Assembly (NCBI GenBank): GCA_028685755.1
Contig: JAQUDJ010000004.1
Coordinates: 75,441-124,941, forward strand
DNA: 49,501 nucleotides
Direction of reading: 5' to 3'
Source of the DNA: Eubacteriales bacterium
Lineage (GTDB): Bacteria; Bacillota; Clostridia; Saccharofermentanales; UBA5734
A model generated the notes under the pieces. That model worked only from the letters and a program-made list of their open reading frames with translations, had not been told where the DNA came from and did no database searches. Below are positions 41,704 to 42,988 of this stretch, piece after piece; the stretch's first letter is position 1; every line of letters begins with the position of its first letter. The translations under genes were made by a program, and so were the position numbers.

Positions 41704-42168
41704 TTAATTACCCAATGTCTCAGCAATTGACGTTGTGGTCGTTTGCAAATCGGTAATATGTTTGACACCAATAATCCGATACCATTCTGAGAAATCCTTG
41801 ATGGGATTATAGACATTAGCAAGCAAGATAATCAGTAAAAACCCAAAAAGAATTAATAATATTCGACGTAAAAAACGTTGCTGTCTTTCAGATTGCCGTT
41901 TGCGATTAATTTTTGCCACCGTTGTATATCCTTTTAAACGATAGACACGTTCTTGACCAACGCGTTTGATTGCTTGAACCGTTTGGCGGCCTTCCCTTTT
42001 GACATCTTGACGAATTTGACGGATCCAAAATGGTCCGTGCTTCTTAATGTAGGCGATGACAATATTCAACTCCGCACGAATATAGGCTCCAAACGAACGG
42101 AGATTTTTATTGATAACGACTAGGACGGGTGTAATTTTCTGTTTAAAGGTGACTTTGCTATTTTTCAC
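41704..42168 (-). CDS. Unknown basic protein with one membrane segment, divergent from lexA
   Basis: I do not recognise the family. The 154-residue protein has a strongly basic, predicted cytoplasmic first 100 residues, one membrane segment at about residues 103-119 (RILLILFGFLLIILLANVY) and about 35 outer residues with Thr-rich LQTTTTSIAET. There is no signal peptide, LysM domain or catalytic motif. The start is GTG 42168; AGGAAA on the minus strand is a weak ribosome binding site. A minus-strand TATAAT (42217-42222) lies about 50 bases upstream, and the leuA side carries a matching terminator. It is transcribed away from lexA, a position that yneA has in Bacillus, but there is no sequence similarity I can see. 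Confidence 0.7.
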   Translation of the reverse strand: MKNSKVTFKQKITPVLVVINKNLRSFGAYIRAELNIVIAYIKKHGPFWIRQIRQDVKREGRQTVQAIKRVGQERVYRLKGYTTVAKINRKRQSERQQRFLRRILLILFGFLLIILLANVYNPIKDFSEWYRIIGVKHITDLQTTTTSIAETLGN

Positions 42169-42216
42169 TATTATTCAACGTTTCCTGTCGAATGATTTTG
42201 AGAAATGATCACCGCC

Positions 42217-42222
42217 ATTATA
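42217..42222 (-). promoter_or_regulatory. -10 element for the minus-strand membrane protein gene
   Basis: Perfect TATAAT on the minus strand, about 50 bases upstream of GTG 42168. The -35 region (GTGCAT at 17 bases) is weak. Confidence 0.5.
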
Positions 42223-42270
42223 CCGAAACCTTACTCAGAATGCACGCACGTCTCATTTAATGGCTAAAAC

Positions 42271-42282
42271 GAACATAAGTTT
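42271..42282. promoter_or_regulatory. LexA box at the lexA -35
   Basis: GAACATAAGTTT (preceded by C) differs from GAAC-N4-GTTC only in its last base and overlaps the -35 TTGACA by 2 bases. Confidence 0.75.
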
Positions 42283-42309
42283 GACAATTAGAAAAGCGCT
42301 TGTTAAGAT
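42281..42309 (+). promoter_or_regulatory. lexA promoter
   Basis: TTGACA (42281-42286) and TAAGAT (42304-42309) with 17-base spacing. Confidence 0.8.
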
Positions 42310-42315
42310 AAATCT

Positions 42316-42327
42316 GAACATGTGTTT
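42316..42327. promoter_or_regulatory. LexA box downstream of the lexA -10
   Basis: GAACATGTGTTT fits GAAC-N4-GTTY and lies at the expected transcription start. With the upstream box it mirrors the recA arrangement. Confidence 0.75.
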
Positions 42328-42352
42328 GTTTTTTGTTATTTCGGGAGGGCCT

Positions 42353-42988
42353 ATGACAACCTATCCGTTCACTCGCGCAAATGTCGATCAGACTGTTAAT
42401 CGGATCTACGAATTCATTGTTGATTACTTGCAAAAATACGGTTATCCACCCGCAGTACGGGATATTTGTGTCGGAATTGGAATTAAGTCAACCTCGACGA
42501 TCCATAGCCATTTACAGCGCTTACAACAGCAAGGTAAGATCGTCTACTCTGCCGGCAAGCGCCGCGCCATCTCAATTCCCGAAAATGAGAACGATCTGAT
42601 GACTCGTGTGATTCATTTACCTTTAGTGGGTACTGTTACCGCCGGTTCACCAATACTCGCCGTAGAGAACATCGAGGGTCATCTCCCCTTTCCCGCTGAT
42701 TTTCTACCACATGATAGTGATGTCTTTATTTTGCGGGTCAAGGGCGACAGTATGATTAATGCTGCGATTTTAGATGGTGATTTCGTTTTAGTCAAAAAGC
42801 AAAGCAACGCCCGTACAGGAGATATTGTTGTCGCGCGAATTGGCGATGAAGCAACTGTCAAAACCCTAGCTAATATTGATGGCCGAATAGTTTTAAAACC
42901 ACAAAACGAAGCTTATCCATTAATTCCTTTCGATCATGAGGATTGTCAGATTCTTGGTAAGGTTTGTGGATTATTCCGAAATCATTAA
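42353..42988 (+). CDS. lexA: LexA repressor
   Basis: LexA represses SOS genes and cleaves itself when RecA filaments form. The N-terminal winged helix (about residues 1-75) includes YGYPPAVRDICVGIGIKSTSTIHSHL. The cleavage site is Ala97-Gly98 in GTVTAGSP, the catalytic serine is Ser133 (KGDSM) and the lysine Lys170 (EATVKTL), so it is complete. ATG 42353 follows GGGAGGG and gives 211 residues. An upstream frame from 42260 covers the promoter and is rejected. Two LexA boxes indicate autoregulation. A bidirectional terminator follows at 43051. Confidence 0.97.
   Translation: MTTYPFTRANVDQTVNRIYEFIVDYLQKYGYPPAVRDICVGIGIKSTSTIHSHLQRLQQQGKIVYSAGKRRAISIPENENDLMTRVIHLPLVGTVTAGSPILAVENIEGHLPFPADFLPHDSDVFILRVKGDSMINAAILDGDFVLVKKQSNARTGDIVVARIGDEATVKTLANIDGRIVLKPQNEAYPLIPFDHEDCQILGKVCGLFRNH

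Follow-up and report, generated by a model that had tools for sequence, protein, structure and literature searches.

A bitopic membrane protein encoded divergently from lexA in one order of Clostridia, possibly a LexA-independent component of the cell envelope

The family protein and its conserved core

The stretch of DNA analysed in this work (49,501 nucleotides, hereafter the window) carries next to lexA a gene encoding a bitopic membrane protein, which we propose, with about an even chance of being right, to be specific to the order, independent of LexA and located in the cell envelope. Independence of LexA is proposed for the family of the window's species (f1), and the envelope location is probable; the protein looks like a permanent housekeeping part of the cell and not like a DNA-damage brake on division. 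This reading is based on the near-universal presence of the gene in the order, on the low dN/dS of its core and on its retention in genomes devoid of lexA, as well as on the variable distance between the LexA box and the TATAAT element of the gene, the absence of a box where lexA is absent or distant, and the occurrence of other LexA-boxed genes. The interpretation offered by the earlier note, that of an SOS-linked cell-division factor, is partly supported: its description of the protein was reproduced, and the role assigned to it was not.

The ORF at 41704..42168 (minus strand; 154 aa, GTG start) is a real gene, for which homologues were found. As the earlier note had described, the protein has a single membrane helix, a very basic cytoplasmic part, no LysM domain and no similarity to a named family. 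Hydropathy maxima cover residues 99-121, and the transmembrane helix itself, at residues ~103-119 (41812..41862, minus strand), was modelled as a high-pLDDT helix. The net charge is +21 for residues 1-101, against -1 for residues 120-154, so that, by the positive-inside rule, the N-terminus is predicted to be cytoplasmic and the C-terminus outer. The window protein gave no match to the LysM model PF01476, no Pfam match above cut-off and no NCBIfam match at E<=1; searches of Pfam, NCBIfam, PHROGs and PDB returned nothing above a curated cut-off or with a convincing E-value, and those weak matches that were examined fall at the transmembrane helix or in its surroundings. The AlphaFold2 model (pLDDT 69.9, pTM 0.34) consists mostly of one long confident helix through the membrane segment, its confidence being otherwise low.

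Alignment of the family revealed a 72-column core nearly without gaps, which reads [KR]xYxLxGYTT, a basic helix, one transmembrane segment and then NPxxDxxExxRIIG, with Y, Y and G invariant and only rare departures from L, G, T, T and P. In the window protein its most conserved cytoplasmic juxtamembrane motif is VYRLKGYTT, residues 75-83 (41920..41946, minus strand), while the conserved short outer segment directly following the membrane helix is NPIKDFSEWYRIIG, residues 121-134 (41767..41808, minus strand). The length of the N-terminal part varies highly across the family, and since the proteins of genomes G025 and G036, read from an in-frame ATG, are only ~74-78 aa long and almost devoid of this part, the conserved unit is the core alone. 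The dN/dS values among three genus relatives were 0.05-0.10 overall, falling to 0.02-0.03 in the core and reaching 0.13-0.23 in the N-terminal part; they come from the L046-L048 pairs only, as the comparison of the window protein with its relatives is shifted and saturated by N-parts of unequal length. As judged from these substitution rates, the gene is under strong purifying selection.

The basic N-terminal part would be consistent with a protein that binds DNA or RNA and so tethers nucleic acid or ribosomes to the membrane, and the gene adjoins hfq in three genomes without detectable lexA (G024, G029 and G036). We consider such a function very improbable, considering that the N-part differs between members and has almost disappeared in G025 and G036, that some members from the sister genus g409 have an acidic N-terminus (in the table of g409 N-termini the rows L118, L120 and L127 bear the coordinates of the preceding row), and that conservation is limited to the core.

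Members from genus g4 (L064:4195-5475 and L069:2-1237; pairs L018/L064 and L021/L069) possess an extra outer domain of ~150 aa, for which no Pfam match was obtained and the AlphaFold2 model was unusable (pLDDT 37.6). Descent of the family from a decayed YneA that had lost its LysM domain was also considered and rejected, the tails read showing no LysM.

Distribution of the family and its position beside lexA

A family match was present in 37 of 39 close genomes, the window's own included, and in all 32 of the good ones. The profile search over the order matched 166 of 188 genomes, 103 of 106 good ones and each of the 30 genera, the gene being nearly always single-copy per genome. At the level of the class, 46 of 292 sampled genomes matched at E 0.01 or better: the 12 matches at E 1.5e-7 or better all belong to the window's order, and the other 34, with E from 2.4e-4 to 0.0097, fall outside it. 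The three of these 34 weak matches that were inspected proved unrelated (a pilin-like protein and two stretches alike only in and next to the transmembrane segment). In the phylum sample of 299 genomes the only match at E 1e-4 was the window's own genome. A motif-pattern scan of 84,980 GTDB species genomes yielded 34 stretches, 30 of which encode relatives, all of them in records titled as metagenome-assembled genomes of Clostridia-type organisms, some as Mageeibacillus, a genus placed by NCBI in Oscillospiraceae; judging by these titles and GTDB placement, the order is probably Saccharofermentanales. The viral contigs searched contained no relative. The family was thus not convincingly found outside the order, and these sequence comparisons define an uncharacterised signature protein for one order of Clostridia, Mageeibacillus-titled genomes included.

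In the window, the gene faces away from lexA (42353..42988, plus strand; TIGR00498, E 4.9e-61). The earlier note had proposed that conservation of this divergent position be looked for, and it was indeed observed: among 138 genomes with both places listed, the two genes are divergent within 1.5 kb in 126, within 5 kb in 2, far off and in another orientation in 2, and on different contigs in 8. The gene order of the window, mutS-mutL-miaA-hfq-lexA-family gene, is mostly repeated in the 12 regions read, and in the f4 genomes G030, G033 and G038 the family gene is placed after the aminopeptidase gene apeB instead. According to the favoured reading, the place beside lexA would, in the window's species, reflect inherited gene order and no regulatory connection; against this, the divergent position is kept more than gene order alone might predict.

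Such persistence speaks for the interpretation of the earlier note, in which the family protein is the SOS-induced division inhibitor of the order, an analogue of YneA, ChiZ, DivS and SosA, which LexA would repress and DNA damage would release, its transmembrane helix blocking the septal synthase. In addition, the sole LysM match of the window's genome lies in a 474-aa frame, so by that test the genome encodes no YneA-like protein. However, a gene is not shown to be an SOS division inhibitor merely by lying divergent to lexA, and the two genes were not always found together. lexA was detected in 163 of the 188 genomes of the order and in 100 of the 106 good ones, a little less widely than the family gene, and six genomes (G024, G025, G029, G036, G620 and the less complete G648) retain the family gene without a TIGR00498 match; in the four of them that were read (G024, G025, G029 and G036) it stands beside hfq or miaA. 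This retention argues against the SOS role, which, together with the operator evidence given below, we regard as distinctly unlikely. Conversely, G019 (59% complete) and G728 have lexA and no detected family gene.

The genomes without lexA are scattered over genera of the families f3 and f4, where lexA has apparently been lost repeatedly.

LexA boxes and the promoter of the family gene

The intergenic region contains two LexA-type boxes. Box 1, CGAACATAAGTTTG (42270..42283, plus strand), has one mismatch to the palindrome and overlaps the -35 element of the lexA promoter, recognized by consensus scan as TTGACA-17-TAAGAT (42281..42309, plus strand; TTGACA at 42281-42286). The LexA-like box 2, TGAACATGTGTTTG (42315..42328, plus strand), is located between the lexA -10 element and the start codon and was also scored in three of the four genus relatives (L002-L004, not L005). 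The family gene has a -10 element of its own, TATAAT (42217..42222, minus strand), with no clear -35; since a good -35 is missing, the consensus scan called no promoter at this place, which has to be counted against the favoured reading. With 47 nt separating this -10 from box 1, the caution of the earlier note, that LexA control of the gene does not follow from the sequence, proved justified.

No operator lies over the family gene's own promoter in the window or in f1, the g10 loci being different in this respect. The -10 element is TATAAT in 15 of 17 f1 loci, at a gap of 25-67 nt from the box, and in all 23 g409 loci, mostly as TGTGCTATAAT or TATGCTATAAT, at 25-259 nt; gaps in f3 were excluded, as the box finder had chosen wrong boxes in several of its loci. 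In f1 the box itself extends into the lexA -35 element. That the -10 stands apart from the box in both f1 and g409 weighs against an SOS-induced gene, and so does the result for ten upstream stretches where lexA is absent or distant, in which no LexA box scored better than in shuffles. In four genus relatives, however, the gap is only 25 nt, near enough for the box to influence the -10, and this likewise counts against LexA independence.

A different arrangement occurs in g10, where in nine loci the box is positioned 2-34 nt from the Shine-Dalgarno sequence with which the divergent operon's first gene begins. Because the box stands at the very start of this operon, LexA probably controls it, and perhaps the family gene together with it; LexA control in g10, likely as it is, speaks for an SOS role and against the favoured reading. 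In the two g10 regions read, a DUF1492-like helix-turn-helix gene lies between lexA and the family gene (L086:5717-6364 and L087:7938-8444), its resemblance to DUF1492 being above the Pfam cut-off in L087 and below it in L086.

Comparison with known systems and the proposed role

Several small membrane proteins of the SOS response resemble the family protein in position and layout. SosA of Staphylococcus, as far as described in the part of the source consulted, is a LexA-controlled protein of 77 aa with a transmembrane segment at residues 10-30 (PMC6851548); in the same partial account, it shares with the family protein the position divergent from lexA, a single membrane helix, the lack of LysM, an outer C-terminus and a conserved stretch after the membrane, a likeness that favours the SOS role. 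Unlike SosA, the family protein has a basic cytoplasmic part of 100 residues before the membrane helix and a promoter element apart from the box. ChiZ of Mycobacterium and DivS of Corynebacterium are, in the portions of the sources available to us, lexA-linked one-helix proteins induced by DNA damage, ChiZ with an outer LysM domain and DivS without one (PMC3989709, PMC6851548); the family protein is alike in its linkage and single helix, whereas the LysM of ChiZ is missing here. YneA of Bacillus, according to the excerpt consulted, binds transmembrane segment 7 of FtsW by its membrane helix and requires its outer LysM (PMC13396833). It is divergent from lexA and has one helix as the family protein does, and its outer LysM has no counterpart in the latter. 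LysM is, then, not universal among the four, to the extent that these excerpts cover them (PMC6851548, PMC3989709, PMC13396833). Despite the shared position and layout, we do not file the family protein with YneA, ChiZ, DivS and SosA, since no operator lies over its promoter. In the open-licence PMC literature no paper on the window's order and LexA was found, nor any title naming the family gene.

Under the favoured reading, the family gene would be steadily expressed and its product would act as a membrane adaptor, the YxLxGYTT patch holding a cytoplasmic partner, and the membrane helix and the outer segment possibly contacting a cell-wall or division protein. The adaptor is modelled on MacP, YneA and SosA, which are thought to reach a synthase via the transmembrane helix. 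Against it, no result obtained here gives a direct indication of the envelope partner.

A rival reading, in which the family protein would, like MacP, activate or regulate a class A penicillin-binding protein, with a cytoplasmic control input and a contact through the membrane helix, seems unlikely. MacP of Streptococcus pneumoniae, as presented in the part of its source consulted, has a cytoplasmic N-terminal domain, a C-terminal transmembrane segment and a short outer end (PMC10746261), that is, a layout like the one predicted here, with a cytoplasmic N-part, a helix near the C-end and a short outer tail, and the MacP model NF038277 gave weak matches in 6 of 27 family members (best E 0.00029). 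All these matches are, however, under the 45-bit cut-off of the model; that of L054 (18.7 bits) extends over the juxtamembrane and transmembrane stretch and may be compositional, and the window protein has no match to the model. Unlike MacP, the family protein has a longer outer tail and no match above the cut-off, and YxLxGYTT is not named in the portion of the MacP text consulted (PMC10746261).

Other small membrane proteins preceded by LexA boxes

Further evidence against the SOS role of the family protein is provided by separate SosA-shaped proteins with LexA boxes, which occur both in the sister genus and in the window's own. Of the 23 g409 genomes, 17 have a micro-ORF (35-75 aa) with a single strong transmembrane segment, which begins 20-59 nt after the LexA box, is preceded by a ribosome site and is situated between lexA and the family gene (loci L119, L124-L126, L129-L139, L141 and L142); L140 represents an eighteenth locus with a looser start. 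None appeared in 100 shuffles per locus, and in ten related pairs dN/dS ranged between near 0 and 0.48, with several of the pairs close to saturation. The same test was negative in 16 f1, 5 g10, 3 g406-408 and 13 f3 loci, with 4 of 9 g10, 2 of 5 g406-408 and 7 of 20 f3 loci dropped because the core motif or the box was not located.

In the window's genome, a 91-aa ORF with an N-terminal transmembrane segment (L149:1292-1567, identical with contig C19:16491-16766) has a promoter TTGACA-17-TATTAT framed by two LexA boxes. Double-boxed counterparts of 88-95 aa, with the transmembrane segment at the start and a conserved GFF in the outer tail, were revealed in each of the genus's five genomes, that of the window included, whereas two such boxes were present in 0.4% of 20,000 random stretches taken from the fetched loci. 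The gene is unlinked to the locus of lexA and the family gene, and homologues beyond the genus were not significant. With its SosA/YneA layout, its product is a better candidate for an SOS division inhibitor than the family protein, and the best one in the window's organism, its role being inferred; together with the g409 micro-proteins, it offers a testable candidate for this function.

A broader interpretation, somewhat unlikely in our estimation, joins both groups of observations: the order would possess an indispensable envelope protein of its own, lacking in other bacteria, whose partner is a core enzyme of cell-wall synthesis or division, and LexA operators would repeatedly have recruited unrelated small membrane proteins as SOS division inhibitors. 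If so, one set of the recruited inhibitors is found at lexA in g409, and the window's genus has another, which is unlinked.

The LexA-type pattern alone is not enriched in the window's genome (12 places versus 11 for the reversed control); its sites include recA, lexA, one position ahead of a DNA polymerase IV gene, another ahead of a putative DNA-repair radical SAM gene, and the pair on contig C19. recA has a perfect LexA palindrome, CGAACGAAAGTTCG, at 622-635 of the window and a weaker second box at 698-711, the same two-box pattern as at lexA.
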